Source of the DNA: Mytilus galloprovincialis
Taxonomy: Eukaryota; Mollusca; Bivalvia; Mytilida; Mytilidae
DNA length: 64,000 nucleotides
Assembly (NCBI RefSeq): GCF_965363235.1
Contig: NC_134839.1
Span: 76,409,410 to 76,473,409 of the forward strand
Direction of reading: 5' to 3'
Every line of letters begins with the position of its first letter. The first letter of the stretch is position 1. A program made the position numbers and the translations under genes. This document shows positions 4,066-56,200 of this stretch, piece by piece. The notes beneath the pieces were generated by a model. It did not search any database. It saw only the letters and a list, made by a program, of their open reading frames with translations, and was not told the origin of the DNA.

Positions 4066-5133
4066 CAACGACAGTAGGACAATCATTAATGTTTCTGGCA
4101 GATGTAACAGAATTCAAAACTCTTAATACATTTCCTTGACTTGGTCTTTGCAATTGTCCTCGTAAACCTGCAAAAGTAAATGAGCACATTAAAATCTAGA
4201 TTTAAAGATATCGGTTTGGTTTTGCTCCGTCATAAATGAGGTTACTTCGGCAAATGTATGTTATGCAACTGTTATGTAGATACTGTACCCAATTTCATAT
4301 CTTGTATTTCCACCACAAATAAAGGTTATATGCTAACGTTATAGGTACACAAGGAAATGACAGTTATGAATTGAGACGTCTTGTATCGGTAGAAAATCAT
4401 AAAATGTTAAAATATATTGTGGAAATTGTATGTTAAAGGAAGGAATTGTATATTTTATTCCTTGGTTAAAGGAGACGGAAACCAAACGAAACTAGTAATT
4501 TATAATTATATAAATTATAGTTCATGTCAACAAAGGAGTGCCGAATACAGCGACTTTCGAATCAAAAACATTTTAAAGTCAAATTGAAAAAACGAAAATG
4601 AAGAGCATTGAGAACCTAAGATTCTTATTCCTGGGATAGAAAATGCTTAGTACTTTTAAAAAAATCAGAGTTCCCAACAGTCAATATATGACCATATCAA
4701 TGATAACTATTTTTTACACAATGGTGTTACATACTGGGTGGTGATACACTTGGAGAGGAAAAATCCACAAACATGGCATCGACTAAATGTAGGATCAAAT
4801 TCGATGTACTACTATATTCATACTTTGCATAACAATTTTCGATTGGGGATATTGTTTTTTTCATACATTTTACATGATTAAACTGAAATCAGCAAATCAC
4901 CCCCCCCCCCCAAAATAACTGGATAAGTTGTAAGGTTTATATGAATTTAGGCAAAAGTAGTTTACCGATATTCGAATCTAATAAACCACTAAGAAGACAC
5001 AACCAAGTTAACAAACTAAAACTGTAGGAATCGCATGAACTCCAAAAACAATCTCCTACTATGCATTCATCATACTCAGAGTATAGCAACAGACATTTTT
5101 AGTCTATAATTTAGGCCATAAAAAAAAAGAAAA
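4066..5133. other. No gene recognised
   Basis: AT-rich intergenic DNA. It contains a C10 run at about 4903 and no ORF above 60 codons. A weak plus-strand GTAAAT/AG pattern was not enough to call an exon. Confidence 0.4.
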
Positions 5134-5704: not shown

Positions 5705-6590
5705 AAAAAGAAGTGACACATTTCAAACAAGAAAACTAACGACCTCTATTATAACAAAACATTATACGACACAAATATGACAGACATGAACCAACTACAA
5801 CCATCATACTACAGGCTTCTACCAACAGTTTTGAATTATATACCTAAAACCTATGCATAGAACAGCTAAATACATATACAAACACATTTTGTCAAAACAA
5901 AACAAAATGTGCTTGATCAGTTTATTCACAAATGGGATAGACAGTTCGTTTAGGGGACAAATTTACTCAGTTTGTTTAAAGATGTATTTGTATTGTTAAG
6001 TATTTAACACCTAAAAATAAATAAGAATTCATCAAATGCTATTGATACTGTGTAACCGTTTCTATGGAAGAAATAAATAACAGATTGTGTTGGAAGAAAT
6101 CATATGTTTGATGCATTGGAAGGAATGATTTCATTTTGTTTGTAAAACTTTATTTAATTTTTACGAATAAGATATTTTATCTTGCTACTGTAGAAAGTAA
6201 TATGAATGTTCAAAGAAAGATAACCCAAAATATATCATTCTACATGAAAAGTAAACGGTTATTATTTGTTATTTTTTTTTATTAATTAACCTTATTTTTT
6301 TGCATTTTTCGTGTCGTAACGCCCAAACGGGTGTTATAATCGGCTATGCGCGTACGCCACATTTTGAACAGACATTCCAAAATGTCAACTAAATGTGAAG
6401 ATCAATTGTATTCTATCTTAGTTGAAATTGTTCCGCTCTGTCTCATTTACAAAAAATGTTTCTAGTAAGTTTATATATTTTGATAGGTTGTCTCATGTTA
6501 CATTTTAGGATATGTGAGTAAAATTTTAATACACGTATTACCTACTAGGACCTCATCTGTTTATGAAGTGAATACTTTATACATATATTG
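5705..6590. other. No gene recognised
   Basis: AT-rich DNA with duplicated phrases (ATAACCCAA and TGCATGAAAA type near 5385 and 6220) suggesting an old local duplication. No ORF or RNA gene supported. Confidence 0.35.
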
Positions 6591-6594
6591 AGTT

Positions 6595-6975
6595 TTAATT
6601 TCCCGAGAGTATCACCAGCCAAGTAGTCAGCACTTATGTGTTGACTTGAGTTACTATTGATATGTTCAAAATTGTAAATTAACTGTTCACAACACTTTGA
6701 AGTTTTGAAATACTAAGGTTTTTCTACCTCATGACTGGAACTATTATACTAAATATAAGTATAATAGTCCCAGCTCAGAAGTAGATTACCATAGCTGTAT
6801 TTGGCAAAATCTTTATTAATATTTGGTCCTGAATGCTCTTGAACTTTGTACTTTATCTGGCCTTTTTCAACATTTTTTTTATTAAAGCGTTACTGATGAG
6901 TCTATTGTAGACATAACGCGCGTCTGGCACAACTTTAAAATTTCAATCCTGGTATATATGAAGAGTTTTATTTAT
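6595..6975 (+). repeat. Hammerhead-ribozyme repeat, degenerate copy with hairpin insert
   Basis: Shares GCTGTATTTGGCAAAA, TTCGTACTTTATxTGGCC-like and GATGAGTTTATT-like blocks with the 27240 copies. The ribozyme region 6887-6930 has GACATAAC in place of GACGAAAC, so the core is broken. A 42-bp foldback is inserted at 6732-6773. Confidence 0.75.
6732..6773. mobile_element. 42-bp hairpin insertion with CTCA duplication
   Basis: ACTATTATACT (6740-6750) faces AGTATAATAGT (6758-6768). The segment lies between two copies of CTCA (6728-6731, 6774-6777). Other copies of the host repeat have a single CTCA followed directly by the downstream sequence. Confidence 0.6.
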
Positions 6976-7335
6976 AATGGGAGAAACCCGGTGTAGACTA
7001 CACTTATTTTTAGCGGAATATAATAATAGGATATATCCTCTTTACCTCTCCTGTCAGTATTGTTTTAACAAAAATGAATTGAACCAGTTAATTGAACATG
7101 TTGAATTACAAAATCTCAGGTATTGGTAATTAACGGGATAGAAGTATTACCAATTTTGTGAAATAACATTACATTTCATAGGACTCACTTGTCACCATAA
7201 GGCCTTTGTTATTGAGAAAAATATGTACCTTATATTAAGCCTTAAAAGGCTCCGACATTACAAAATGAGAAAACCAGTAGCCTGCTTTTATGACAAACAA
7301 ACTCATCATAGATACAGGATTGACATTTTTTATCT

Positions 7336-7378
7336 GCGCCAGACGTGCGTTTCGTCTACAAAAGACTCATCAGTGACA
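7336..7378 (-). ncRNA. Hammerhead ribozyme motif
   Basis: The minus strand reads CTGATGA, stem II GTCT-TTTGT-AGAC, GAA, a minimal stem III (ACGCACGT) and cleavage triplet GTC. Stem I pairs over about five base pairs. The core is complete. Confidence 0.75.
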
Positions 7379-7623
7379 GTCAAATAAAAAAAGTTAAAAA
7401 AAGGCTAAATGAAGTACGAAGTTAAAAAGCATTCCCTCGGGGAATAAAAGCTCTACCAACAGTGGCATCGACCTAGTGGTTGTAAGTAGATAAACGTAAA
7501 CAAATAAGACAGCAAAACTTAACAATGAATTACAGGCTCCTGATTTTGGAGAGTGACATACATAATGTAGCGGGTTAAAAACTTGAAAAATAGTTATCAA
7601 AGGTACCAGGATTGTAATTTAGT

Positions 7624-7662
7624 ACGCGCGTTTCGTCTACACAAGACTCATCAGTGACACTT
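7624..7662 (-). ncRNA. Truncated hammerhead ribozyme motif
   Basis: CTGATGA, stem II and GAAA are present, but the cleavage side differs (ACGCGCGT runs into ACTAA, without the GTCTGGCG strand), so it is probably inactive. Confidence 0.5.
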
Positions 7663-10627: not shown

Positions 10628-10893
10628 ATAGACGATTATTGATTTATAAATTAACTGTTTACAAAATTTTGATTTTTTTGAAACACTAATGCTTTTCTAC
10701 CTCAGGCATAGATTACCTTAGCTGTATTTGGCAAAACTTTTAGTAATTTTGGTCCTGATCTTCAACTTCGTACTTTATTTGGCCTTTTTAACTTTTTTTG
10801 ATTCGAGCGTGACTGATGAGTCTTTTGTAGACGAAACGCGCGTCTGGCGTATATATATAATTTAGTCCTGGTATCCATGATGAGTTCATTTAC
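10628..10893 (+). repeat. Hammerhead-ribozyme repeat, single copy
   Basis: Same body as the 27240-27897 pair, from TAAATTAACTGTTTAC to ATCCATGATGAGTTCATTTA. It lies between TMIE and the lectin gene. Confidence 0.8.
10807..10850 (+). ncRNA. Hammerhead ribozyme motif
   Basis: GCGTGA-CTGATGA, stem II GTCT-TTTGT-AGAC, GAA, ACGCGCGT and C, then TGGCGT. All core residues are present; stem I has one mismatch. Confidence 0.82.
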
Positions 10894-17700: not shown

Positions 17701-20700
17701 GTAGAAAATGGTGGATTAAACCTGGTTTTATAGCACTTACCCTCTCACTTTGATGAAAGTCTCGTCAAATTCCGTTATATTTACATTGATGCGTAAACTA
17801 AACAGACACAATAAATAAAATATTCAAAACATGGGTACATCAGTCATCATCGTATAACAATTTTAAAAGGGACAATTTAACAGAACACAAAATCATCTAT
17901 CTACAAATACATTCATTGATTTGTGTGTCTGAGTTCAGAAAATGTTTTTATACGTCACATACATTTGTCGTTCAATGTGCATGCAAACAATTTTAAAATT
18001 TACATAGACAATGTTAGCATGTAGGGTTAATAAATCAAAAGTATGTAAGAATAAATATCAGAAATGGACCGAGATTGAAAATAGTCCAAAAGTTGTATAT
18101 AGAATTTATAAGAATCCACAAATAGTTAATTCCACTATCAGTCATCATTGTATAACAATTTTAAAAGGAACAATTTAACAGAAAACAAAAACATCTATCT
18201 ACAAACACATTCATTGAATTGAGTGTCTGACGTCAGAAAATTTTCAACCTCACATAAATTTGTCGTTCAATGTGCATACAATCAATTTTAAAATTTACAT
18301 AGGCAATGTTAGCATAAAGGGTTAAAAAATCAAAAGTATGTAAGAATAAATTTCAGAAATAGACCGAGATTGAAAATAGTCCAAAAGTTATATACAGAAT
18401 TTATATATAGATGCGTACAATAATTATTTGCATTTCCAGGCAAATAGTTTTGATCTGCGTTTTTCATTAAATAAAATGGATTGTTTTGCTAGCTCAGTTT
18501 TCGACTATGAGTTTTCTTTTCTTGTTGAAGGCTTCCAGTAAACATTCCGGTTTTCGGTAAGAAAACTGGCAATCCCAGTCAACTAAAATAGAAGTCGAGC
18601 GCATCCACCTAATGAAATGATTCATAATTAACATTGAAATTGTGTAAAAGAACATCATCATGTTCGTTACTAAAATATCCCTTTCTTAATCATACTCGTT
18701 ACTTTTAAGTCATACATGGTCCTTCTTAACCATACATTTTCAATTTTGTTGCGATAATTTGATAATTAGTACAATTATAAAGTGTTTTGCTTTCTATAAT
18801 TAATCTATATATTACACCGATCAATAAATGTACCAGTACTCATACATAGCGTGTCTTATTAACAAATAACATAAGATGTCGGTAAGAATTTCGTGCACAT
18901 TGTATCGTTATTCACCGGTAGAAAAGCTGAAGTAAAAATACTACTCAATGTACAACAAAGTTGTGATAACATATGAAGGAAAACAAAATAAAGGGTCGAA
19001 TGACATTCTCGTTTTTAAAAAAAAATATAAAGTTTATGATATAAATAGGTGTCTTACCTTGTGAATGTTTGTTAATTACTTCTACTGCATACTCGGAAGT
19101 CAGATTAACGCAATTGCTTTCATATTATTTGTGTATGACTTAGTTGGATTGGTGGCCGTGTTGAAGCGAGTGGAAAGTCTACATACAATGTAAATAAATT
19201 CAACACATTTATACAAAATCAAGACGAACTAACAGTAGCGAAAAAAGTAAAATACATTGGTATATCTGCATTTGTGTTTGCCTGAATAATAGGAAATATT
19301 GTAAATAGGAAAGTAAAATGAATGCAAAAATGAAGTGGCTTTAAATTGAATACTACTGTGTCTTGTTAACGAAACCCTTTATAAAGTGGATTGCACTGGC
19401 AACCAAAAACCTACTCTGGCACATCTCAAACGCAGAATACTTGAGGTTGAATTTCTATGAATATAGACGATGCAATTTCCCATAAGTACTCCCTTTGTGA
19501 CTAAAACTGTGCCACTTTTACTATGACATGTCTTAAAAATTATATCCAAGAATGGAAAATTCATATTTATTCAGTACAATTTCAAAGTTCATAACATAGG
19601 GCTATGCGGTATATTTTTTTTTAGAGTTCAAACTTGTACTAAAATTTTGTACTACCCCTATTTTCATTTTGTGTCTACTTTAGAATTCAATTTTCACCGA
19701 AACAATATGTTTTTATGCTGGTTACATTTCCAAGTTATGTCTCTATGAGATGAAACATAAAGATCATATAAAAGAACCCGTATGTAAACAAAATTTAATA
19801 TCTTTGAACATCATATATCTCCCAAAAGAGGCGTGGTTGGAGCAAAAACTGTTTTTGCAAAGTGCAGCCTTTAGGCTTTTGTCAAGTTTTTCAAATAACT
19901 CTGGATACCTACGTTGTTTATCATCTTAATTAATAACGTGTTAAAGTATCCCGTCATTGTGTCAGTGAAAATGGCTGTGAATTTAAAATTGAAAAAATAA
20001 AATGTGTAAATATTAGGATTATATCCGTATTCATATGTGTAAAATGAACTAATTGTGATCGAAAACATCATGTTGAGATGCCGAGAAGAAAACATAAGAA
20101 TCCAAGGCGAGGAAAAAAGTATAAATATGAGTTTTCTTCTTCTTCTTCTTCTTCTTCTTCTTCGGATCAGTCAGGGCTAATGGACAAAAGACAATGTACT
20201 AACAAAACCGAGAATAACAAGGTATGTTTTAACACTACAAGTGACAACAGTTCAGTCACCGATCAAAACTTTACAATGAATAACTCAGTTCAAGGATTGC
20301 GATACACAACACCAATGACCAGCTCACCAAATCCTGGGATTCAACCTTATCAAAACGTTTTACCGTACCCACCACCACCCTTCACAATGCAACACGCACA
20401 GCACCCTGATTCTGTCGAGATTGATACATGTACTTTGTTAAAAGAGATATGTGAGCGTATAGGAAGAGTTGAATTAAAACTAAACACCCTTGATAAAATA
20501 GAAAGCCGTTTAGATAAAATAGACACAAAACATAAACAGATGGATAGTGAAATTTCAAACTGCAAAGATAGAATCGGTTATCTTGAGCAAAGCGTTCAGT
20601 TCTTATCAGACGTAAAAGACGAACATACAGCTCTCAAGACAAAAGTAGACTACCTAAGTAATGGTATCGAGTCAACAAAAACAGACAATAAAATTGTTCG

Positions 20701-23700
20701 TGATAAGATAGAATCTATAGAGTCACAAAGTTTGCAACAAAATCTGCTGTTTTTTGCAATAGAAGAAAAGTTCGAAAAAGTAGTGGTACACGATGAAGAA
20801 AAGGGGGGTGCAACGGGACAAAAAGGTAAAACTGTACAGCCTATAGACGACGAAATTTGTGTGGAAACGATTTTAGACTTTTGTGAGAAGAAACTTGCGA
20901 TAAAAGATGCTAAAACAAAAATAAAGCTGGAACGAGCATATCGATTAGGAAAACCAAGTGCGGAGGCTACTAAACCTGGGCCGATTGTTGTTAAATTTTG
21001 TGAAATGTCTGACCGCGAGTACGTTCGCAGTGTTTCAAGTCGCTTGAAGGACACAAATTATGGTATCAGTCCGCATTATCCAAAAGATGTATTAGAAAAA
21101 AGGAAAAAACTTATTCCGAAAATGCTTGAAGAGCGCAAAAACAAAAACAAGGCTTATCTAGTTGGAGATAAGTTATATGTAAACGGCAACCTATGGCAAG
21201 GATAGGGGTATTCGGAGTTTGATTTCAAAGAAAACAGTAAAAAACCCAAGTCTCACATCAATGCATTACTTAAGTTATGTTCATGGAATATTTCAAAAGG
21301 TTTATTGAGAAAACTTAAAGATAAAGAATTCCTACAGATGGTAAACAAATTTGATATATTGTGTTTAAATGAATGTTGGGTAAAATGTCCAGAAGAATTC
21401 GACTTATTGGGTTATGAAAAAGAATACATAGTCAGGAAAAAAAGTAACGGGGGAGGTGTTATTGTGTTTTATAAAAAATGGTTAAACCCTTTTATTACAT
21501 TTGTAAAGAGCTGTGTTGATTGTATGATTTGGTTCAAAATTGATAAAAGTATTTTGTGTGATAATACCGATTTATATATTTGTTCTATATATATGCCTCC
21601 ATATAAAAATGTGTACTATCGTAAATATGACATAGATGTATTTGATAACCTACAAGAACATATAGAAATGTTCAGTAACAGGTAATGTGGCCGTTATAGG
21701 TGATCTAAACAGTCGCGTAGGTCAAGAACCCGACAACATAACAGGTGATGTAATAGACAAACAATTACAAGACAACATTTCTTTCATTAATTATGTAAAT
21801 GATGATGTATTTTTAAACAGACAATCGGAAGATATCAAACCACCTAATAATTTTGGCCAACGCATCTTGCAGTTATGTAAAAACTCTGGGCTACGTATTT
21901 GTAATGGAAGATTTGGTAAAGAAAGTCAGAAAATAACATTTAACAATAAGAATGGGTGTAGTGTAATAGACTATATGTTAATTTCACAGAATAGTATGTT
22001 CAATGTTATTAATAGTTTTTCTGTTGGATCGTTTAATCATTTCTCTTGTCATGCACCACTAGAAGTTGATTTTAATCTTACTGATAATGTTGTTAATAAA
22101 GACCAGTGTAATTGTATTAACCATGTTTGTGATATTTTTAAATGGAACGAGGGGTGCGAAGATCAAATCAGAGACAGTTTATTGTTGAACGCTCAACAAT
22201 TTGAACACTTACTCACAAATATAGACGAAATTAGCGATATTGATTGTTGCGTGGAAGAATTGAATAAACTTTTGAAAGATATATTCGAGCAATACACAAA
22301 GTCAGAAGTGAAATACAAAAAACATTGTGACTCCTGCCCTACAAGTAGTAAAACACGTGACCAAAAAGATGATAAACCGTGGTTTACAGACGAATGTAAA
22401 AGTTTATACAGAGACTATTTACGAGCTATGGTGGATTTTAATAGATACCGGTCGAATGAAAATAGACTACGTTTTAATTTAGCCAAACAAAGATACAAAC
22501 GATTGGAAAATCAACTGAAAAGACAATATAAAAACCAGCAGGGTGATATGTTATCTAAATTATGTAAAAATAACCCTAAATGATTTTACAGGAAATTTAA
22601 AAAGTGCAAAAAAACTATTACCCATACGCTTACTGTAGAAGAATTTGAAAAACATTTTAAAAACCTGATTTCAAAAGATGTCACCACAGAGGATCATCAT
22701 AGTGATTCAATCCCAGAGGTCGTATATGAAGAATTAGACTCTTCTTTCACAGACTTGGAACTTGACACTTCTATTAAATATTTAAAACGTGATAAATCCA
22801 CTGGATATGACAATATTATGAACGAATATTTATTAACGAGCAGAAACTTTATCAAACCAGTATTGTGTAAACTGTTTAACCGTATATTGAGTGCTGGCGA
22901 TTTTCCAGAAATATGGGTAAACAACATTATAATACCAGTTTTCAAAAAAGGACCAGTAGACGACCCTGGCAACTATCGTGGTATTTCTCTTGTATCACAT
23001 GTGGGTAAACTGTGCACATCAATTATTAACACCAGGCTTACCAAATGGAGCGAAAAACACAATATAATAACCGATGCACAGTTTGGATTTAAACCGGGTT
23101 ATGGAACAACTGACGCCATCTTCGCACTCCATTCTCTAATTTCTAAGTCTTTGCGAAGTGGAAAACGATTTTATTGTTGTTTCATAGACTATAAAAAAGC
23201 GTTTGATAGTGTGTCTCATTTCAAATTGTGGTTAAGATTAATCAGATGTGGTATAAGTGGAAACTTATTAACTGTTATTAAATCTATGTATGCCAAAATT
23301 AAATGTTGTATTAAACTGGAAGGAAATTTTTCAAATTTCTTCCAAAGTAATGTTGGTTTGATGCAAGGAGAATCATTATCTCCTTTTTTATATTCTTTGT
23401 ATATTAATGACATTGAAAATGAACTTTTAAGCCAAGGTTGTCAGTCATATGAGTTAAAGATGCTCAATTTATATTTGCTAATGTATGCAGATGATACAGT
23501 TCTTTTTAGTGAAACTATTGATGGTTTACAAAAAATGATAGACAGTGTAGACATATATTCTAGAGAGTATGATTTGGATATTAACTTGTCTAAAATCAAA
23601 ATTGTTGTGTTTAGAAATAGAGGCCTCGTTAAAGCGACTGAAAAATGGTACTTAAATGGTGTTGATATTGAATTATGTGATGAATTTACATATCTTGGTC

Positions 23701-26031
23701 TCCTTTTTAAATACAATGGTAACTTTGTACATACACAGAAAATGTTAGCAAATCAGGGTAGAAAAGCATTATTTAGTTTATATAGTAAAATATATGATGA
23801 TTGTTTTAACCATGAAACTATGTTATCTCTTTTTGACACATATGTATCTAGTATATTAAATTATAGTTGTGAAGTCTGGGGACATCACAAAGCCGAAAAT
23901 ATTGAGAAAGTTCACTTAAGTGTTTTAAAACGTATATTGAAAGTCAAAACAACTACTGTTACTTATATGGTATATAGTGAATTGGGTAGATATCCATTGT
24001 ACATAGAGAGATATTGCAGAATGCTTAGATATTGGTTTAAATTATTGAAAACAGATAACTGTATTTTACAATCTTGCTACCAAGAAATGTTAGAAAGATC
24101 GATATTAAAACCTCGTGACAAACAAAATTGGGCATGTGAAATAAGAAACATATTATTTCGTTATGGTTGTCAAGATGTATGGTTACACCAAAATGTTATT
24201 AATGTTGATCATTTTTTGCTAGAAATTGTTAATAGAATGAAAGGTAGTTTTGTCAGTGAAATGAATGCTTTTTTCAATGAGTCATCAAAGTGTATTTTTT
24301 TATAGATATTTACACAATCCAGATACTCTACAATTTTACCTACAAAAACCTGTAAACTATGTTTTTAAGCCATATATTAGTAGATATAGATTGTCTGCAC
24401 ACTGCCTTAACATTGAAACTGGTAGATTTTGTAATATTGAAAGAGAAAACAGATTATGTAATATGTGTGATAAAAACATGATTGAAGATGAATACCATTA
24501 TATTTTAGTATGTGAGAAATATTCTGATATAAGGAAAACATATATAAAACCATTTTATTGGAAAAAACCATCTAGTTACAAACTTGTACAATTATTGTCT
24601 GTTCATAACATCAAAGAGCTTAACAATCTAGGTAAATACCTTTATTTAGCTGATAAGATTCGTTATTCATAATATTATACTCATATTTCATTATTTATAT
24701 TATTTGTTGTCATTCTCCGCCATTGATACAAACTGTTTGTAATAATAAAACATGTATGTAATTATTCACTGATGCTATTATACTTGTATATGTAAATTCT
24801 ATAAGCTGTATTGCTTCTAAATAAAAGACTATTATTATGGTACACTAATTTGTATGCTTTGTATGCCATTTTGTATTTCTTTGTTACATATTACGTGGCT
24901 CTGTACTTATGCACTCCGTCATTGTGTTATCATGTTATATGCTATTGTAAATTTTAGTTTTTTTGCCTTTCAGTTTTGCTAATGTGCTTTGTCTATATGA
25001 CTTTTTGTGCTTCTTTGTTTCGTATTTGCTTGTTTTCATAGTGATTTAGATTATAAAAAATGTTGACTGCTGTTCTCCCGTTTTGACAATTTTACCTTTT
25101 ATGTTTGCTCGTTTTATTCACACATCGTTGTCAATATAATGGAATTTTATGTAACTGTCATACCAATTAGCGGTTTAGCTAGATATACAACCAGGTTTAA
25201 TCCACCATTTTCTAAAAATACCTGTCTCAAGTCAGAAATATGACAGCTGATATCCATTTGTTTAATGTGTTTGAGCTTTTGATTTTGCCATTTGATTACG
25301 GACATTCCGTTTTGAATTTTCCTCGGAGTTCAGTATTTTTGTAGTTTTACTTTTCGCTAAGTGGAAAAAATGATGTCTTTTTCACAAATAACAAATCCTT
25401 AATTATATTATATGTGTCTATCTAAAACGTTCAGGACTCTGTTAAAAAGCCCCGGGAAAACAATGTGTTCAACATTTCAAAAATAAACAGTCTGATTCAA
25501 GTCATGACTTATAATTAAAAACAAAAACAAAAACTAATACATATTAACAAACTTTTCTAAAATTGTCCATTGTGTTGGTTCGGTACTTATACATCTTTGG
25601 ATATCAAATGTTTGGCTTTGAGCGTTCCTGATGAAGGTTAATTCAGAAAAGCACTTCGGACGCATTTAATTATTAATTGTGTTCCTTACGAAATGATAGA
25701 TATAATAAAAAGTATGTTCATTCTTTTTTTGTAGAAGGGTCTACCACTTTCTGTCATCATTGGCCTTGCCGTTGGATTTGGAGGTTTCATCGCATTAGTG
25801 ACTATTTGTTGCATTACATGGAACTTATTTTGTGGAAATGGCGATGATGATAAAATTTCTCCTGAACCAATGGGAGTTGTTAATATAAATATTTCTAAAA
25901 ATTCCACTCAGGATATTGCAAAAGAAAATCCATGGCTAAAAGACGAAGAAATTAGTTTCTGCTTACGAGATAAATACACTTTTGAATTATCTCAGGAGCT
26001 AACTGGAAAAAGAACAAAATATATGAAATGA
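11719..26031 (+). CDS. C-type lectin domain single-pass membrane receptor, 5 exons
   Basis: Exons at 11719-11785, 12214-12364, 12688-12908, 15792-15865 and 25735-26031 total 810 nt (269 residues) with phases 1, 2, 1 and 0 agreeing at every junction. Residues 1-22 are a signal peptide. Residues 25-146 form a C-type lectin-like domain: WTDARIFC (38-45), WIGG (79-82), W101/W104, then Cys at 111, 116, 122, 136 and 144. A short Thr/Ser stem (148-171), a membrane helix (about 176-198) and a 70-residue cytoplasmic tail follow. The usual EPN/QPD triplet is EPD (108-110) and the WND element is absent, so canonical Ca-dependent sugar binding is doubtful. Such receptors are abundant in bivalves and often assigned to pathogen recognition; that role is inference. 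The final 9.9-kb intron contains a LINE and an inverted duplication. Confidence 0.82.
12214..12364 (+). CDS. Lectin receptor exon 2 (N-terminal half of CTLD)
   Basis: The acceptor TTTTGTTCCAG is followed by a phase-1 start giving Gly-Gln-Cys. It carries the WTDARIFC helix motif and ends in ATNGG before GTATTT, phase 2. Confidence 0.82.
12688..12908 (+). CDS. Lectin receptor exon 3 (C-terminal half of CTLD)
   Basis: The acceptor ACATTTCAG is in phase 2. It encodes IGDAWIGGYYDE, the SWTNWES segment and five Cys ending in LCEK, then the donor GTAATA in phase 1. It is too fragmented by frame to show as one open frame from an ATG but reads cleanly between its splice sites. Confidence 0.85.
13235..13560 (+). 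repeat. Tail repeat of the adjacent Penelope-like fossil
   Basis: Contains TAGGTCACCGTACGGCCTTC, CATAGTCAGCTATGAAAGCT and TTCCTGTCTTGGGACAGC. On the minus strand it directly follows the RT fossil at 13640-14085, the same order as 40190 to 40925 on plus. Confidence 0.65.
13640..14085 (-). mobile_element. Penelope-like retroelement fossil (C-terminal RT remnant)
   Basis: The minus strand preserves the layout of the family's C-terminal third, with similarity to VYISQLVR, FTKFYHRYKD and YGNxxYRxRKF of the better copy at 35979-36850. It is old and clearly broken. It lies in lectin intron 3. Confidence 0.6.
14380..14760 (+). repeat. Dispersed repeat homologous to 40480-40860
   Basis: CCGGCCACGTCxAC, CCATCTG, TGAGTTA, TGTCCCAGGTTAGGG, GTCAGGAxCCTGTAATTCAG and CAAGGCCGTACGGTGAC match in order. 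It is a second tail of the Penelope-like family. Confidence 0.65.
15130..15400 (-). repeat. Tail fragment of the 1420-2870 Penelope-like family
   Basis: ACTGACACTGTCTTGGC, GGTAAGGGGATCCTGCTTCA and GATGAGTTTAATTCGGT parallel 1440-1680. No coding part is left. Confidence 0.5.
15410..15625 (+). repeat. Dispersed 'GATGTGxTATGAGxGCxAATGA' repeat
   Basis: Carries GACAACTCTCCATCCAAGTC, TATAGGTCAAGGTAAGG, GAACAGCAAGCTATAAAG and GGTAAACCAACGGTCTAAT, as at 53040-53450. It lies just upstream of lectin exon 4. Confidence 0.7.
15792..15865 (+). CDS. Lectin receptor exon 4 (short Thr/Ser stem)
   Basis: The acceptor GAATTCAG (phase 1) gives an Asp codon. 24 residues follow, DGLLNCVDPSTASMTSTTKT and then PVNK. 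The donor GTAGGT leaves phase 0, matching exon 5. An alternative donor (GTATTA, phase 1) would not match exon 5. Confidence 0.6.
16040..16375 (-). repeat. Degraded dispersed repeat of the same family
   Basis: GCCTTTATAGCTGATTGTAC, AGAAGGTCAT and CTTGTCTCACTGGCA are the complement-strand blocks of the 15410 family. Confidence 0.5.
16455..16830 (+). repeat. Left arm of a 2.7-kb inverted duplication
   Basis: AACACGGCCACCAATCCAAC through GGTGAATAACGATACAAT to GAGTACTGGTA is repeated, inverted and somewhat diverged, at 18795-19166. Both arms keep a short open segment (CVNxTSEYA) ending near GTAAG. Confidence 0.75.
17555..17835 (-). repeat. Dispersed 'CTGAACTCCGAGG' repeat
   Basis: Complement of 25080-25365. 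It includes ATATTCCTGACTTGGTACAG and TGGTGGATTAAACCTGG. Confidence 0.7.
17840..18412 (-). repeat. Tandem duplication of a ~305-bp unit
   Basis: Units 17840-18107 and 18138-18412 share ATAACAATTTTAAAAGG, TTTGTCGTTCAATGTGCAT, AAATCAAAAGTATGTAAGAA and GACCGAGATTGAAAATAGTC. Confidence 0.8.
18795..19166 (-). repeat. Right arm of the inverted duplication
   Basis: Inverted partner of 16455-16830. The spacer between arms holds the tandem 305-bp repeat and a dispersed repeat. Confidence 0.75.
20078..21205 (+). CDS. LINE ORF1 RNA-binding protein, 375 aa
   Basis: A basic N-terminus (PRRKHKNPRRGKK) and a ten-Ser run from a TTC microsatellite come first. A low-complexity region follows, then a coiled coil at about 115-220, an RRM-like domain at about 220-315 (NLLFFAIEE ... 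LERAYRLGK ... PIVVKFCEMSDRE) and a C-terminal domain at about 320-370 (YGISPHYPKDVLEKRKKL ... AYLVGDKLYVNG). This is the trimeric chaperone layout of L1-type ORF1p. The frame is intact. It ends in TAG at 21203-21205, with ORF2 continuing in the same frame. Confidence 0.85.
   Translation: MPRRKHKNPRRGKKYKYEFSSSSSSSSSSDQSGLMDKRQCTNKTENNKVCFNTTSDNSSVTDQNFTMNNSVQGLRYTTPMTSSPNPGIQPYQNVLPYPPPPFTMQHAQHPDSVEIDTCTLLKEICERIGRVELKLNTLDKIESRLDKIDTKHKQMDSEISNCKDRIGYLEQSVQFLSDVKDEHTALKTKVDYLSNGIESTKTDNKIVRDKIESIESQSLQQNLLFFAIEEKFEKVVVHDEEKGGATGQKGKTVQPIDDEICVETILDFCEKKLAIKDAKTKIKLERAYRLGKPSAEATKPGPIVVKFCEMSDREYVRSVSSRLKDTNYGISPHYPKDVLEKRKKLIPKMLEERKNKNKAYLVGDKLYVNGNLWQG
21206..21685 (+). CDS. LINE ORF2, N-terminal part of APE endonuclease
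   Basis: The open frame runs straight on from the ORF1 stop. It begins with a linker, then LCSWNISKG and NECWVKCPEE, the first APE catalytic blocks, and ends in a strand with CSIYMPP. There is no in-frame ATG before the first catalytic block. A one-base indel at about 21668-21685 moves the frame. Confidence 0.8.
   Translation, partial: GYSEFDFKENSKKPKSHINALLKLCSWNISKGLLRKLKDKEFLQMVNKFDILCLNECWVKCPEEFDLLGYEKEYIVRKKSNGGGVIVFYKKWLNPFITFVKSCVDCMIWFKIDKSILCDNTDLYICSIYMPPYKNVYYRKYDIDVFDNLQEHIEMFSNR
21687..22583 (+). CDS. LINE ORF2, rest of endonuclease and linker
   Basis: Starts with VAVIGDLNSRVG (APE GDxN block) and continues to CSVIDYMLIS and FNHFSCHAPLEVDF (the terminal SDH-type block, here NHF). 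It then runs into a basic linker. It ends at TGA 22581-22583; the following codons stay open in the same frame into the reverse transcriptase, so this is probably a Trp codon mutated to stop. Confidence 0.8.
   Translation: MAVIGDLNSRVGQEPDNITGDVIDKQLQDNISFINYVNDDVFLNRQSEDIKPPNNFGQRILQLCKNSGLRICNGRFGKESQKITFNNKNGCSVIDYMLISQNSMFNVINSFSVGSFNHFSCHAPLEVDFNLTDNVVNKDQCNCINHVCDIFKWNEGCEDQIRDSLLLNAQQFEHLLTNIDEISDIDCCVEELNKLLKDIFEQYTKSEVKYKKHCDSCPTSSKTRDQKDDKPWFTDECKSLYRDYLRAMVDFNRYRSNENRLRFNLAKQRYKRLENQLKRQYKNQQGDMLSKLCKNNPK
22584..24305 (+). CDS. LINE ORF2, reverse transcriptase and thumb
   Basis: Open in the same frame as the preceding segment. It carries the RT blocks PVFKKGPVDDPGNYRGISL, FGFKPGYGTTDA, FIDYKKAFDSVSH, GLMQGESLSPFLYSLYIND and the catalytic YADDTVLFSE, then a long thumb/connection. 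It is interrupted in a run of seven T (24295-24301), a typical slippage site. Confidence 0.88.
   Translation, partial: FYRKFKKCKKTITHTLTVEEFEKHFKNLISKDVTTEDHHSDSIPEVVYEELDSSFTDLELDTSIKYLKRDKSTGYDNIMNEYLLTSRNFIKPVLCKLFNRILSAGDFPEIWVNNIIIPVFKKGPVDDPGNYRGISLVSHVGKLCTSIINTRLTKWSEKHNIITDAQFGFKPGYGTTDAIFALHSLISKSLRSGKRFYCCFIDYKKAFDSVSHFKLWLRLIRCGISGNLLTVIKSMYAKIKCCIKLEGNFSNFFQSNVGLMQGESLSPFLYSLYINDIENELLSQGCQSYELKMLNLYLLMYADDTVLFSETIDGLQKMIDSVDIYSREYDLDINLSKIKIVVFRNRGLVKATEKWYLNGVDIELCDEFTYLGLLFKYNGNFVHTQKMLANQGRKALFSLYSKIYDDCFNHETMLSLFDTYVSSILNYSCEVWGHHKAENIEKVHLSVLKRILKVKTTTVTYMVYSELGRYPLYIERYCRMLRYWFKLLKTDNCILQSCYQEMLERSILKPRDKQNWACEIRNILFRYGCQDVWLHQNVINVDHFLLEIVNRMKGSFVSEMNAFFNESSKCIFL
24265..24672 (+). 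CDS. LINE ORF2, C-terminal Cys/His domain
   Basis: The frame picks up across the T7 run. It includes RYRLSAHCLNIETGRFCNI, CNMCDKNMIEDEYHYILVC and a terminal helix, a CCHC-like zinc region common at the C-terminus of such LINEs. It stops with TAA at 24670-24672. Confidence 0.75.
   Translation: MLFSMSHQSVFFYRYLHNPDTLQFYLQKPVNYVFKPYISRYRLSAHCLNIETGRFCNIERENRLCNMCDKNMIEDEYHYILVCEKYSDIRKTYIKPFYWKKPSSYKLVQLLSVHNIKELNNLGKYLYLADKIRYS
24850..25365 (+). repeat. Dispersed mussel repeat, longest copy in the window
   Basis: Starts with the TTTGTTACATATTACGTGGC block (family of 2860-3260, inverted) and continues into TGTTTGCTCGTTTTATTCAC, CAAGTCAGAAATATGACAGC and TTTCCTCGGAGTTCAGTATT-like sequence (family of 17555). 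This shows the two blocks belong to one element of about 520 bp. Confidence 0.7.
25735..26031 (+). CDS. Lectin receptor exon 5 (TM helix and cytoplasmic tail)
   Basis: The acceptor TTTTTTTGTAG is followed by KGLP and a 23-residue hydrophobic helix ending TICCI. An acidic, then Ser/Asn-rich tail ends in TGKRTKYMK and TGA. Assignment to the lectin gene rests on strand, phase 0 and the otherwise missing anchor. Confidence 0.72.
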   Translation, partial: KGLPLSVIIGLAVGFGGFIALVTICCITWNLFCGNGDDDKISPEPMGVVNINISKNSTQDIAKENPWLKDEEISFCLRDKYTFELSQELTGKRTKYMK

Positions 26032-26640
26032 TTTCAACTGTCTTTTTTGGGAGAGGGATTACAGGATATTTCTAGCATTATTCCAGCATTTTCCTGACTA
26101 AATTGATACAAACAATCTCATATTTCAACAAATGCATTCACATCGATTCTTTCTAAACCCCATTGTAACTTCATCAACTAATAAAAATTCTATTTGGCAG
26201 GTACATGTATAAATATGATTTCATTAATTTCTAAAAATGTCAAGACGAAGAATTTAATATTCATGTACTCGCTGATGCCGTGAGAAGAGAAAATGAAACG
26301 TGAAAACCGTATCTAAGTAAATTCAAGGACAACAAAACAAGTTGTGGAAATAGTTGCTGAATGAATTGAAATTCAAATATTCAAATATTCCGGTGCTGAG
26401 TTTTGGAGTACAGATTACCTAAAGGACATTGAAACTGGTCAATTATTTTTTTTTGTAAATGGTTATTATGAATAGTTTCAAACAAAAAAACAATCATGTA
26501 ACAAAAGTCAAATGCAGCCGTCATGAACTTTTAGTTAGTAATGTCATTACTTCATTTACAAAGCTTTAATATGCTCATATGCTTTTATGCTTAAGGTAGT
26601 GTTGTCATTGTGATTTATATATAATATTGTATATTTGGTA

Positions 26641-27222
26641 AAGGAGTAGGTCCAGTAAGACCCCATTTTGGCCCCAAAATATAGCAGTTTTACAAAATTG
26701 TTAAAATGTAAACTTTTAGTCATTTATTGGATAGTAGTAAGGTTCTGCTACATAAATATGGGCTCTTTTTGACAATACAATGCACATATATTGAGAACTA
26801 GCACCCTTAATTCATGCTAAATTACTGAAATCTTCACAATTCCAGCATTTTAGTTCAATTTTAGACAGTTTCCGTGTAAAACGAAAGTGGCCGCATTCGT
26901 GTTCATCCAAAATATTGAAATGGAAGTTGTATTTGATGATAATACATAACATATATAAAGATTGAGGATGAACACGGATGCGGCCACTTTCGTTTTTGAC
27001 AAAAACCATCTGAAAAGTGACATTTTTTCGCATATTTGGTAGATTTCTCATATTTGAGCCTCAATCGGATCGTTTTTAATGACTAAATAAGTTAAAATCT
27101 TTCACATAAATTAATTGCATCATATGAAATAGACACTTAAGTGTTTAAAAAGTGGTCAAAATCTTTCGTCAGATGAAACTGAAATTTGAAGCCAAAATCG
27201 GTCCTTACCGGACCTACTCCTT
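26641..27222. mobile_element. Tc1/mariner-type MITE (TA target)
   Basis: Terminal inverted repeats AAGGAGTAGGTCCAGTAAGA / AAGGAGTAGGTCCGGTAAGG, about 35 bp imperfect, flanked by TA at 26639-26640 and 27223-27224. An inner inverted pair (26877-26908 with 26966-26997, core GGCCGCATxCGTGTTCATCC) forms a second hairpin. No transposase. It lies 600 bp past the lectin stop codon. Confidence 0.82.
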
Positions 27223-27461
27223 TAATTATTAATAAATACTGGTCTATGTAGTCAGCTTTTTGTGTTGACATGAATTCTCATTGATATGGTTATATTCATA
27301 CATTTACTGTTTACAAATTTTGGAATTTTTTGAAATACTAAGGATTTTCTACTCAGGCATAGATTACCTTAGCTGTATTTGGCAAAACTTTTAGGAATTT
27401 TGGTCCTAAATTCTCTTCAACTTCGTACTTTATTTGGCCTTTTAAACTTTTTTGAATTCGA

Positions 27462-27505
27462 GCGTCACTGATGAGGCTTTTGTAGACGAAACGCGCGTCT
27501 GGCGT
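27462..27505 (+). ncRNA. Hammerhead ribozyme motif (upstream member of tandem pair)
   Basis: GCGTCA-CTGATGA, stem II GGCT-TTTGT-AGAC (one mismatch), GAA, ACGCGCGT and C, then TGGCGT. Stem I pairs over six base pairs counting wobbles. Confidence 0.85.
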
Positions 27506-27808
27506 ATATACTAAATTTAGTCCTGATATCTATGATGAGTTTATTTACAACCACTGGGTCGATGCCACTGCTGGTGGAGATTTATTTTCCCGAGGGTATC
27601 ACCAGCCCAGTAGTCAGCTTTTTCTGTTGACATGAATTGATCTTGATATGGTTATATCTATACATTTACTGTTTACAAATTTTGAAATTTTTTGAAATAC
27701 TAAAGATTTTCTACCTCAGGCATAGATTACCTTAGCTGTATTTGGACTTTTAGGAAGTTTGGTCCTCAATGCTCTTCAACTTCGTACTTTTAACTTTTTT
27801 GGATTCAA

Positions 27809-27852
27809 GCGTCACTGATGAGTCTTTTGTAGACGAAACGCGCGTCTGGCGT
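27809..27852 (+). ncRNA. Hammerhead ribozyme motif (downstream member, fully intact)
   Basis: All conserved core residues are present. Stem II GTCT/AGAC is perfect with a TTTGT loop. Stem III is the self-complementary ACGCGCGT with no loop, and stem I GCGTCA/TGGCGT pairs over six base pairs with wobbles. A loopless stem III is the type thought to act best as a dimer. Confidence 0.9.
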
Positions 27853-28214
27853 ATATACTAAATTTAGTACTGATATCTTTGATGAGTTTATTTACTCAAC
27901 TATTTGAAATTATTTAGATATAAACTGATTGGAAATTGAATTGATTTCATAATATAAACAATTTTAAGCACACAGATTTCCGAGGAAATATGTAGCTATC
28001 ATAACTTCACCAAGAGAATCGTAAACGTCATGTTCTGGTGAAAATGATTGTCAAAGAAATTAACAAAATAACAACCATGCATTATACTTCAAAGTCTAAA
28101 TGAACAGCCGATGGTTTTATGATAAAATTTGTGAACAATATCATGTTTTATTAATGAGATAATGTGAACTTGCTAACCACAATTTCGATTGACTCATGTA
28201 TGAAATGACAAAGT

Positions 28215-28960: not shown

Positions 28961-29091
28961 TATAACACAGAAAGAAAATAAATAAAAAATGTACTTAAAA
29001 AAGCATATTAACGATCAATGTAAAAATAAAGATGAGAATGAAAGAACTGAAAACAACTATTCCAATTCGTATTCCTACAAACACAGATATT

Positions 29092-29781
29092 GAGAAAAGA
29101 GGGGATGAAAGCAACCCATAGCTAAAATTACCAAAAACAGACATATGTAAAGGAAAGAGGGGATGAAGGCAACCCATAGTTAAAAGTAACAAAAACAGAC
29201 AGATATTGAGGAAAGAGGGGATGAAGGCAACCATAGCTAAAATTGACAAAAACAGACAGATTTAGGAAAGAGGGGATGAAGGCAACCCATAGCTAAAATT
29301 AACAAAAACAGAGAGATATTGAGGAAAGAGGGGATGAAGGCAACCCATAGCTAAAATTAACAAAAACAGACAGATATTGAGGAAAGAGGGGATGAAGGCA
29401 ACCCATAGCTAAAATTAACAAAAACAGACAGATATTGAGGAAAGAGGGGATGAAGGCAACTCATAGCTAAAATTAACAAAAACAGACAGATATTGAGGAA
29501 AGAGGGGATGAAGGCAACCCATAGCTAAAATTAACAAAAACAGACAGATATTGAGGAAAGAGGGGATGAAGGCAACCCATAGCTAAAATTAACAAAAACA
29601 GACAGATATTGAGGAAAGAGGGGATGAAGGCAACCCATAGCTAAAATTAACAAAAACAGACAGATATTGAGGAAAGAGGGGATGAAGGCTACCCATAGCT
29701 AAAAGTAACAAAAACAGACAGATATTGAGGAAAGAGGGGATGAAGGCAACCCATAGTTAAAATTAACAAAAACAGACATCC
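29092..29781. repeat. 58-bp minisatellite, 12 copies
   Basis: Units start at 29092, 29151, 29209, 29263, 29322 and then every 58 bp to 29728, each AGGAAAGAGGGGATGAAGGC + AACCCATAGCTAAAATTAAC + AAAAACAGACAGATATTG. The central units are nearly identical, so expansion is recent. It is noncoding in the intergenic space between the convergent genes. Confidence 0.93.
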
Positions 29782-34200: not shown

Positions 34201-37200
34201 TCACGCAACTGAACTAATATGTTGTCGATAAACAAGTACAGGATTTTGATGAAATCATCATCTTCATATTTTTTGAAGATTTTTCAATACCTAAAATAAG
34301 ATTATTTGGATCTACGATGCCAATTTTTGTAGAAAATGCTTAGTCTATCAAGTCTTTAAATTGAGGTATAGAACCACTAATTTAGTGCCGGTCGGAAAGA
34401 ACATACAAGCAAGTAGTACATATTTTAAACAAGATTGTACCTACGCATAGCTGTATCTTTGTCAACTGCGGGTATATTTGGTTATTTGTAATATCAAATG
34501 AAAGCTTGGGGACCTGGGATCACTGTAGAACCCTTGTTGAAAGATTTATTTGAATTATAAAGAAGTATATGAAATTTTGATAGAAGGGCACATTTGACCT
34601 GTTGTTCAGATCAGAATTTCCTGTTTTTGTACTATCAAACTTCAGGGAACCAGTACGCTCTAATATGCAATTAAAGGTATGTTGATTTTTGCAGCACAAG
34701 TCAGGATGAGGTACAGTTTTGACATGAAATGACTGCCACTTTATTTGAACATAAGACAAAGAAGCCATTAATGCTTGAAATTGCAGAATTAAACATAGAA
34801 AGTAACGGGCTATGAATTAGTGGTTTTATACCTTGAGCATGAATTAAGTAACGATCAAAATGAGTAATACGTGTATAATAGAGGTATGTATTCTATGGTG
34901 AAGTTATTTGAATTTTTTGATAATTTTGTAGAAATGAGAAGAAATCATGAAACTTCTAACAGATAAGCACTTACTTTCATCACAGAAACTTTCATCTTCA
35001 GCTTCAGCACAATCCGCAATTCCATTACATTGCCAATAATCTATGATACATTTCCCATCTTTACAACGGAAAAATCCCTTACTGCAATCTTAAATATGTA
35101 AACATTTACAAATCTAATAAGTGAACAGTCATTGTTGAACTGCAATGGCTCACTCAGTGTAGGTATACTTTGCAAGAAGACAGACAAATGCAATGGATTT
35201 TAAGAGTTAATGGAGCATTAATCATTTAATTCATAATCACCGATTTGAGGAAAATTCTCCTATTTGATAAAAGCATACGAAACGTATATTCAAAATCCAA
35301 AAAAGTGTTAAAAAACAGGAATTTCGTGCGTGTTTAAGTTTAAAATTGAGAATGGATATGGGGAATGTGCCAAAGAGACAACAACCCGACCATAGAAAAA
35401 AACAACAGCAGAAGGTCACCAGCAGGTCTTCAATGTAGCGAGAAATTCCCGCACCCGGAGGCGTCCTTCAGCTGGCCCCTAAACAAATATATACTAGTTC
35501 AGTGATAATGAACGCCATACTAATTTCCAAATTGTACACAAGAAACTAAAATAAAAATAATACAAGACTAACAAAGGCCAGAGGCTCCTGACTTGGGACA
35601 GGCGCAAAAATGCGGCGGGGTTAAACATGTTTGTGAGATCTCAACCCTCCCCCTATACCTCTAGCCAATGTAGAAAAGTAAACGCATAACAATACGCACA
35701 TTAAAATTCAGTCCAAGAGATGTCCGAGTCTGATGTCAGAAGATGTAACCAAAGAAAATAAACAAAATGACAATAATACATAAATAACAACAGACTACTA
35801 GCAGTTAACTGACATGCCAGCTCCAGACTTCAATTAAACTGACTGAAAGATTATGATTTCATCATATGAACATCAGGCACAATCCTTCCCGTTAGGGGTT
35901 AAGTATCATACCATCATAACATATATGAGAAGAACATAACCCGTGTCATGCCAACAACTGGTTTTTGAATAAATGTGTTTAGTTCCGATGCAAAGACCCT
36001 ATAAGTGAATCAATATTAACGCCAAAATATGCAATCTTTAATGACCTGACAACAGTATCGTAACTATATCCCTTCTTAATAAGTCTATTCAAAGGTTTTG
36101 TTAGTTTTTGAGGTGAATACTGACACCTTTGTGCTTTATAAAGAATATTTCCATAAAAAATTGGATGTGAAATACCTGAACGTATAAGAAGTCTGCATGT
36201 TGAGCTATATTTACGAATGATGTCCTTATACCGATGATAAAATTTAGTAAATGTTTTGACTAGTTTGTGATATCGAAAACCCTGGTGTAATAATTTTTCA
36301 GTAATACATAAATTTCTCTCGTTAAAATCTAAAACATTGTTACATACACGAGCGAATCGTACAAGTTGAGATATATAAACACCGTAAGATGGTGACAAGG
36401 GAACGTCACCATCTAAAAATGAATAATTAACGATAGGAAATGAAAAATCATCTCTTTTATCATAAATTTTAGTATTCAGCTTTCCGTTAGTGATATAGAT
36501 ATCAAGATCGAGGAAAGGACAGTGGTCATTGTTAGTATTAGCTTTATTTAAAGTAAGTTCAGCAGGATAAATTTCTTTAATATACATACTGAAGTCGTCA
36601 TTATTGAGAGCCAAAATATCATCCAAATATCTAAAAGTATTATTAAATTTGTTTATCAGATGTTGTTTCGATGGGTCTTTGTTTATTTTTGTCATAAATT
36701 GCAATTCATATCAATACAAAAACAGGTCCGCAATAAGTGGTGCACAGTTAGTCCCCATTGGAATTCCGATAATCTGACGATATACGGAATTCATCTAATC
36801 ATCCATCGAAGGGACCGCCGAAGACTGCCGACAATCATATAGCTTTATATAAACACAAAGATAAGTAAAATTAGATAAGCAGGCACATGTAATCTAACAA
36901 TGACGATTTATTAAGATCTGTTTATGTGCATGTTGTAGATTTAAAGATATATTTATATATTTTGTTTACCTTTATAGGAAGTAATTTTCTGGTCTTGATC
37001 AGTCAAAAAAGGCATCACCATTATTTCAATTTTCAATAATTACGAATGAACCACATGCTAAACAATTGCACAACCTATCTCCAAGGTCAACTTAAAGGTC
37101 GAATGGGTGCAGATTCAAATAGGGTTGAATTATTGACTTGCAAGCCGATGATACAACAGGATTGTTTTTTTTCTAGCTTATTTTGACGAAAATAAACAAA

Positions 37201-53774: not shown

Positions 53775-56200
53775 TCTTCAAACATTCAATTTGATTACAA
53801 ACTTGCTGTATTATAATCCTAAGAGAATGCATCAAATATTGTCGAAATGAAAAATGTCGGTGAAAGAAATAAGCAGGTTAAGGAAAATCGAGATACTTTA
53901 TAAGGGACCATTACGGTATAACACCTTCAGTGAGTTGGTAAAAATTTACTTGTATCTGGCGTATTGCATGTATATAACGTAGCAAATATTTCGCCAAGTA
54001 AATAAAACGAAACCCATATATGTAAATAGACAAAAAAGGCGTCGTACCAGGCATCATGCAAATACGTAATTATAAATCAGGACAAAAACGACACTTAAAG
54101 CACATTTGCAGCAATGAATAAGGGTAACAATAGTTTACCAATATTCAAATCTCATTTTGTTACACATATACAAATCAAGGCAAAACAGTCTTGCAGATGG
54201 AATCAAACCCCAGCAATTAATCTCTATATTTTGTTTAAAGAAGAGGTTCGGTAAGGCACTTTTCTTGAACTCAGATACTTAACTTTTTTTTATTTTTAAG
54301 ATGTTAAGTATTTCAAGCAAGTTAATGTATTATGTATGAGAAAGGAAAACTGGGCGAATTTGGTCGCGATTTTCTGACAAAGCATTGTCCGGTACATACA
54401 AATGGGGTAGATAATAGATATTTTGTGAAAGTTCACATTGTAGTTTAGATTTAAATTAAATTATGGCTAGGAAACATAGAGTGCAAGATTTGACTAGCTA
54501 AATATTCATGTCAGATAGTTCACTAGTTATGATAAACATAATTATTGTCCGTGCATGTTTTTATCTAATTTGGTGCAAACTTGAGATGTATTCGAGTGAT
54601 GACACGTACATTTTGAAACAAATTTATATTTCCTGCTTTGTTATTTTTAAATAATTATAATTGGATTATGATATTTTGTAATTGGCCATTTAATCCAAAT
54701 TTTAAAATAGAGCTAAAACATGGGCCAGTCTCATAAGCTGTACCCCTTTGGTAAAACAGTTGACAGTAGGCCTACATTTAATACGATAAGTATAGTCAAG
54801 AAATTTAAACAATGTTTTCAAATCATTTGACATGTTAAGTGAAATTAAAAAATTTTAATTTCCAAAACTTGACACGTATAAAATGAAATCTTTGTAGAGT
54901 ATGATGAGACCCTTTGTTCTCATAAAAGCTTTTTAATTTTTCATCTTTTGAAACTAATGAACGGATCTAAAGTTATGTGACGAAAAGTAAACATAAAATT
55001 TCAATCCTGGTATCTATGATGAGTTTATTTCCTACTTTGTAAATGATAGAGCAAACATGGTGACCACACGCCTTTTGTTCGCATTAAAAGCTTTTATCGA
55101 GTTCTAAATTGATGTTTGCTTTACGCCGCCTCAGTAGAAAAGACTATATTATGGCGTATTTGTCTATACTCTGATAGGCTTTATTGGTAAAGGATTACGG
55201 AATATATTCTAATTTCTTTTATTGTTTCATTTATGATTTGAATTGAATAAATTTGTTTATATTTTTCGATTTGATTACACTGACATGTTTATTTCACCTT
55301 TTGTTTAAAAGAAAAACAGATAAATTACTTTAAGTTATTTATATATTTAAATATGCCTCAAAAATCAAAATTGAAAATTAAGTAGATTTATTTTAGAGAA
55401 CTTAATTTTACACCCGTAAAAATACAATTAAATAATACAGTTCTAATTCTAAATGTACACATAAATTAGCACAAAATATGATATGAAATACCTTCTGCTG
55501 ATAACACTGTAAACAAAAGAAGATGAACAAAAAATGTAACTCTCATGTCAACGCAGAGTGAATGTTACAAGATTTCCTTATCCATGTGTAATGTTCCATC
55601 AATCCTGTTCAAAGAAAATCTCGGAAAAGGAATAAAAATCGTTAAAAGTATCTCTTTAACATGGAATTCTTCCAATCGGCGACAAACACAGTATATTATC
55701 ATAATAATTGAATCAAAAAGCGTATATAGAACATGTCAATCATTAAGCTGAATCTACTAGTATTGAAAGAAGGGATTAATGGAAGAATTATATTTTGACT
55801 TTACTTGATATCATATGGAAAATATTTTTAGAAAGATTAACAAATTAAAAAAAGTAAAATGATAACCAATGTTGGTACTGTAGATAATTTACCGATTTTC
55901 AGTAATCCTCTGAAAAAGTGGTGTTTACTATATGTATGTAAAATTTAAGATAATTAGTCAACTAGTTCAGTCATGTAATTTTTAGTTTAAAACAACTATA
56001 TGCACAGTTTTTAAACAGTATAAAAGAAAAAACTGACATGGTTAGAAATTACAAATAATTCCACCATTACTAACACAATTATATATCAATATTCTTGTAA
56101 TGGTTAGAAAATACATAAAACTACACAATTACAAACATAATTCCAAATATATATTCTATTTTCCAAATAAACCTGTGACGTCACTTTTTGTGGCGTTGAT
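53775..56200. other. No gene recognised; short hammerhead-repeat tail inside
   Basis: AT-rich. AATTTCAATCCTGGTATCTA with GATGAGTTTATTTCC at about 54993-55032 is the end block of the hammerhead repeat without a ribozyme. Short frames (e.g. 55545-55751) have no recognisable domain. Confidence 0.4.

Follow-up and report, generated by a model that had tools for sequence, protein, structure and literature searches.

A probable non-LTR hammerhead retrozyme insertion in Mytilus galloprovincialis and a fixed 3' end among its relatives

Introduction

The elements closest to the locus described here come from the same mussel. According to the available excerpts of the original account, Mytilus galloprovincialis retrozymes comprise ~5000 type I hammerhead ribozymes (HHRs) of two families, carried in repeats of 350-390 bp; a cloned repeat self-cleaves, and circular RNA is abundant in tissue (Cervera & de la Pena, 2020; PMC7229834). 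The accessible portion of a 2020 paper states that the animal repeats have no conserved motif betraying which retrotransposon machinery serves them (PMC7761336). In the HHR-bearing Penelope-like element (PLE) of Anolis, the available part of the report places the HHR cut 26 bp, and the start of reverse transcription 111-118 bp, into the ORF, the latter in an AC-rich stem loop (PMC11167929).

We analysed a 64-kb stretch of M. galloprovincialis DNA (C2:76409410-76473409; hereafter the window), and surveyed the genome of 1,384,861,812 bases for related copies. An HHR-bearing repeat in the window, at 27248-27895, is in our view (probability about 0.8) an old non-LTR retrozyme insertion of the animal type, 1.8 units long and truncated at its 5' end, from a family copied by internally started reverse transcription through the steps proposed below.

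Results

The original prediction had placed two HHRs in the same orientation in this part of the window. Searches with the Rfam model RF00163 confirmed the pair, ribozyme 1 at 27462-27505 (+) with 24.9 bits and ribozyme 2 at 27809-27852 (+) with 32.5 bits, and the predicted cuts, after 27499 and after 27846, lie exactly the proposed 347 bp apart. Type I was the top-scoring clan member at both sites, ahead of the plant type (type III). The covariance check that had been suggested thus matched both ribozymes over the full type I model, but both remained slightly below the gathering score of 34 bits, and at that threshold no Rfam family was matched anywhere in the 64-kb window. Both cores had been described as complete. 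The core residues are indeed complete in the first copy, but its stem II is mismatched (GGCU opposite AGAC), in line with its lower score; stem II of ribozyme 2 is intact. Stem III was correctly read as a loopless palindrome, ACGCGCGU in both copies, and the Rfam model likewise draws four pairs and no loop. The HHR core pattern occurred four times in the window and in none of 100 shuffles.

Boundaries from blastn and the unit profile gave an insertion of 648 bp (27248-27895, +), or 1.79 units, running from unit position 111 at its 5' end to unit position 49 at its 3' end. Its two copies are 89% identical, which bears out the head-to-tail duplication claimed for this repeat. The gap between the two predicted cleavage sites defines a predicted monomer, or circular RNA, of 347 nt (27500-27846, +). 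This length, and the 358-369 nt of aligned sister units, lie within the range of about 170-400 nt for tandem HHR-bounded units, and the GC content of 36.6% lies below the 45% that bounds non-LTR retrozymes. The longest stop-to-stop frame overlapping the array has 58 amino acids, in keeping with an element that has no protein-coding region. Together with the type I HHRs, the tandem units and the genome-wide dispersal described below, these features support the earlier label 'retrozyme-like'. Folded as a circle, the 347-nt unit reached -75.2 kcal/mol (z -1.4 relative to 100 dinucleotide shuffles), so that its self-pairing is not clearly unusual, and none of the lowest-energy folds computed for the HHR region contained the hammerhead. 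Compared with the >80% majority of 37 sister units, the unit at 27500-27846 differs at 33 columns, 17 of which are gaps, and the first ribozyme is weakened. The locus at 27248-27895 is unlikely to be still productive and is probably inert; we judge it improbable that it still makes circles.

Three other features were noted around the insertion. The stretch just upstream, 26862-27014, is self-complementary, is matched on both strands by microRNA-precursor models far below their cut-offs, and is probably a small palindromic repeat. A frame at 25735-26031, about 1.2 kb 5' of the retrozyme, resembles by eye the membrane-spanning exon of an upstream lectin-like gene, with no Pfam match. A tandem repeat with a 58-bp unit (12 copies, 95% matches) occupies 29083-29778.

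Five further places in the window carry related pieces. These are a copy with a single HHR at 10642-10893 (+; HHR at 10807-10850, 27.4 bits), a copy with a degraded HHR core at 6590-6974 (+), a copy with two HHRs at 7295-7662 (-; 7617-7660, 22.2 bits, and 7336-7379, 27.9 bits), a member of the second subfamily at 61391-61534 (-; HHR at 61430-61473, 28.9 bits), and a tail-only insertion of ~30 bp without a ribozyme at 54996-55030 (+). Two short weak matches were also seen, at 26639-26672 and 4626-4663.

Copies are numerous beyond the window. A genome survey had been proposed as a check, with only dispersed inactive copies as the adverse outcome; the HHR cores proved to be dispersed, with 17,629 exact occurrences in the 1.38-Gb genome against 0 for the reversed control. 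Two subfamilies could be told apart, each with its own type of stem II loop and 3' flank, and their exact tails numbered 3,952 (subfamily 1) and 9,618 (subfamily 2), again with reversed controls of 0. The exact pattern of a tail that continues into the linker occurred 493 times (reversed control 0). Unit matches, among those listed, sit on contigs C1-C14, in agreement with a dispersed, high-copy element. With RF00163, 37 matches were found in the genome among those listed, 29 of them above the cut-off (74 scored of 224,653 candidates), and none in 14 control genomes; the exact HHR pattern was also absent from the viral contigs. In 20 sister loci, which had been picked with the same model, 22 RF00163 matches exceeded the gathering score. 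As a separate observation, three HHR cores lie on one strand with a spacing of 6.2 kb at G000:C1:2395892-2408351, which suggests a larger tandem duplication.

The window and the fetched loci together yielded 195 HHR matches, of which 146 were distinct and long enough to be kept; this set is partly selected on HHR score, and its core residues are intact in 97 of the 146. In an alignment of 99 of these stretches, 95.7% of the cells of the type I structure pair, compared with 95.5% after shuffling (25/500 shuffles as high), and covariation is barely above that of shuffles (86/500 as high). Sliding the pairing partners lowered the paired cells to 16-56%. The HHR is conserved in sequence, and the alignment therefore says little about its pairs.

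The head-to-tail order of the copies, and the occurrence of long arrays such as L032, which fills its whole 3.4-kb locus, are what would be seen if this were a satellite-like tandem repeat, spread by unequal exchange or DNA-level duplication with the HHRs as passengers. However, only 25 of the first 100 listed exact HHR cores on contig 1 have an exact neighbour at 330-375 bp; the other 75 have none, and most exact cores thus lie apart. A second argument against a satellite came from the ends of the insertions.

Arrays were mapped with the unit profile in 78 loci and, after removal of two duplicates (L051 and L054) and of arrays touching locus ends, 106 were left. Among arrays whose locus had been retrieved with the HHR, 29 of 35 had a 3' end within unit positions 30-59; for loci retrieved with the unit, the figure was 32 of 34. 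Thus 61 of 69 arrays in loci not selected for their 3' end stop just past the HHR and before the predicted hairpin; the corresponding count for loci selected by the tail itself was 26 of 37. Taking all arrays, 83 of 106 end at unit positions 34-58 and 23 elsewhere, compared with about 7 expected within that range for uniform ends (p about 5e-75, with the range picked post hoc and the arrays treated as independent). The fixed end is present in both subfamilies and, in that of the window, is mostly found 45-51 nt 3' of the HHR cut. At the junctions of subfamily 1 the element ends in ...GATGAGTTTATTT, and at those of subfamily 2 mostly in ...GATAACTA, followed in each case by unrelated sequence where internal units continue into the linker. 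The window insertion has both situations: its internal tail lies at 27523-27548 (+), at or within a few bases of whose last bases the family's insertions mostly end, judging by the sister-array junctions, and the tail at its outer end lies at 27870-27895 (+), with unrelated sequence beyond (row L029).

The 5' ends of the 83 arrays, on the other hand, are scattered. Five start 10 nt or less from the cleavage site, compared with 4.8 expected, and nine start at the hairpin, unit positions 105-130 (5.9 expected, p 0.14), which we do not take as a pile-up; insertion lengths range from about 28 nt to several units. A single fixed 3' end with scattered 5' ends is unexpected under unequal exchange and, although the lack of clear target-site duplications (see below) is in its favour, we regard a satellite origin as very unlikely. 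The sequence pattern instead suggests that reverse transcription begins at a fixed site inside the RNA. LINE-like insertion is the established example: where the enzyme starts at one set position and halts at variable ones, 3' ends coincide and 5' truncation is scattered.

A sample that avoids selecting complete units was obtained from the first 20 loci in the position-ordered list of exact tails on chromosome 1. Sixteen of its 22 tails leave the element at the fixed point and six continue into the linker. One of the 16 exiting tails, in L070, directly abuts an oppositely oriented copy. The sample amounts to 21 insertions, of which 18 are longer than 60 nt (the longest 1291 nt) and hence extend past the cleavage site; the other three are tail-only cases, whose length was fixed at 28 nt for the count (the stretches actually shared are 27-29 nt). 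Immediately before the tail, the three tail-only cases and the one at 54996 share nothing: the sequence there is unrelated. Since most sampled insertions pass the HHR cleavage site, their template must have been joined across the cut, and was either a circle or an uncut multimer.

It follows that the crossing of the cleavage site would be seen equally if the copies came from reverse transcription of uncut multimeric transcripts rather than circles, with the HHRs of little weight for mobility. That HHR mutants of the Anolis PLE leave insertion in vitro unchanged, in the available part of the report (PMC11167929), agrees with such a template, as does the finding that variants in the two longest arrays compared are mostly not common to all units (L032, 1 shared and 54 not; L050, 3 shared and 48 not). 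On the other side, circles predominate among the RNA forms of the mussel tissue examined, according to the available excerpts (PMC7229834), and the two near-identical units of L040 are 99.5% alike and 94.4% alike to others, as expected from a rolled circle. Identity is also higher between units of one array (mean 0.949, 25 pairs) than between units of different arrays (0.923, 678 pairs), which, at the level of sequence comparison, is compatible with a rolled circle but is no proof of one. We consider the multimer template unlikely, though the strongest of the competing readings.

The flanks of the insertions gave no clear signal of target-site duplication: in 58 arrays the mean longest match was 5.53, compared with 5.33 for shuffled pairs (16/200 as high), and matches of at least 9 occurred in 3 of the 58 compared with 1.3% expected. 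No base preference of the target was seen in 81 arrays, where AT content was 69.8% over the 20 nt on the downstream side and 71.5% on the upstream side, compared with 68.2% further off. An AT-rich target, or an ATT motif as in the Anolis PLE, was considered for the same 81 arrays and dropped, none being seen.

We also searched for a helper that could share the tail. An autonomous partner was not found among the sampled tails, since 19 of 22 exact tails lie in retrozyme bodies and the remaining three stand alone, with unrelated sequence upstream. The window itself contains a LINE-like element with an RVT_1 domain, broken into several frames, at 20048-24672 (+), and a reverse transcriptase-like frame with a YLDD motif at 35979-36710 (-), with its 3' end near 35340. 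No tail-sharing partner was recognised in either: the latter ends in another sequence, and the stretch after the LINE was read by eye. The reverse transcriptase-like frame, which may be Penelope-like, had no significant match in Pfam or among solved structures. At least 150 scored matches to it lie in the genome (48,065 candidates), with identities of 96-99% except for the match to itself, and several copies of the element have a common sharp 3' end in ...CTCAATTTTA. Two copies of the frame lie on the same strand 3,965 bp apart at G000:C1:10688900-10693593 (-), possibly as a tandem element. A weak SECIS-like match (27.4 bits, cut-off 35, E 0.37) lies just downstream of the stop of the frame in the window, at 35863-35927 (-), and would fit a selenoprotein-bearing element; a selenoprotein-bearing clade of PLEs has been described.

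The presence of this abundant element in the window could be taken to mean that the locus at 27248-27895 is the decayed remnant of an autonomous PLE whose pseudo-LTRs bear HHRs, and type I HHRs in tandem pseudo-LTRs of PLEs are reported in the accessible parts of two papers (PMC11167929, PMC7761336). However, no frame longer than 58 amino acids overlaps the array, and so none for the reverse transcriptase with GIY-YIG endonuclease that a PLE would link to its HHR repeats, the units are short (347 nt here, 358-369 nt in aligned sister units), the 3' end of the reverse transcriptase-like element is a different sequence, and neither target-site duplications nor an AT preference of the target lend support. 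The HHRs of PLEs are moreover minimal, without helix III or loop contacts in the published excerpts, and the HHR here matches the full Rfam type I model. We regard descent from a PLE as the least probable of the readings considered.

Directly 3' of the tail lies a predicted linker hairpin (27553-27611, +; -24.1 kcal/mol), present here at the internal junction only. In an alignment of 56 of 81 linkers, 93.6% of its cells pair, compared with 92.5% after shuffling (0/500 as high), and five pairs are changed on both sides, compared with 2.0 in shuffles (6/500 as high). When the partners were slid by -3, -2 and +1 columns, however, 7, 7 and 5 pairs changed on both sides were counted, so that three of six slides equalled or exceeded the predicted register, and a slide of -1 gave a covariation score of 0.089 compared with 0.074 in register; the slid versions had only 36-55% paired cells. 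RNAalifold predicted no pairs from all 56 linkers; by subfamily, it predicted three weak pairs from 39 linkers of subfamily 1 and a hairpin of -22.2 from 17 of subfamily 2. Support from these models for a conserved linker hairpin is thus mixed.

Discussion

Our preferred reading, a truncated retrozyme insertion from a family copied by internally started reverse transcription, would involve the following steps. Transcripts would be cut by their HHRs and the monomers closed into circles; the reverse transcriptase of another element would then start at one set site within the circle, or within an uncut multimer, and run a variable distance, sometimes more than one lap, and the cDNA would be joined to the target. 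That the family's ribozymes are active and that circles form is taken from the published mussel work, as far as its excerpts are available (PMC7229834).

A more specific proposal is that the enzyme recognises the linker hairpin, and that target-primed reverse transcription starts at one point of the circular RNA ~50 nt past the ribozyme. We hold this tentatively, at slightly less than even odds. If true, it would give the retrozyme the same layout as a Penelope-like element, explain the use of a template that has no 3' end, and name the class of the helper enzyme. In any case the shared 3' end, next to a possible hairpin and present in both subfamilies, is a candidate signature of the helper machinery. 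It also provides a precise RNA site for work with purified reverse transcriptases, and lets circles be tested as the true template.

With regard to novelty, the element itself is of a published kind. It shares with the non-LTR retrozymes of M. galloprovincialis, as described in the available excerpts, type I HHRs that fall into two families, a repeat length of ~350-390 bp, low GC and copy numbers in the thousands. Its assignment to the non-LTR retrozymes is supported, the match to the published ones being one of features. The fixed 3' end, the tail-only insertions and the linker hairpin go unmentioned in those excerpts (PMC7229834), and no report of them was found in the accessible parts of the open-access literature on retrozymes, Penelope-like elements and target-primed reverse transcription. 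What is new is therefore the insertion anatomy, although an account of it may exist elsewhere in print.

Two other systems allow comparison. HHR-bearing PLEs, in the available part of the report, likewise have tandem units and an insertion 3' end that lies in or at a stem-loop a short distance past the HHR (PMC11167929). The layout here resembles that of the Anolis PLE, with a proposed start ~50 nt past the cut, at the base of a predicted hairpin that follows ACAACC. Unlike PLEs, the element described here encodes no protein, shows no AT preference of the target in our sample, and has an HHR to which the model fits with helix III included. In the LTR retrozymes of plants (Cervera, 2016; PMC4918200), according to the accessible portions of two other papers (PMC7229834, PMC7761336), there is likewise a non-coding, HHR-bounded unit with a circular RNA, the circle being predicted in our case. 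The plant elements differ in having type III HHRs, LTRs, a primer binding site, 4-bp target duplications and units of 600-1000 bp.
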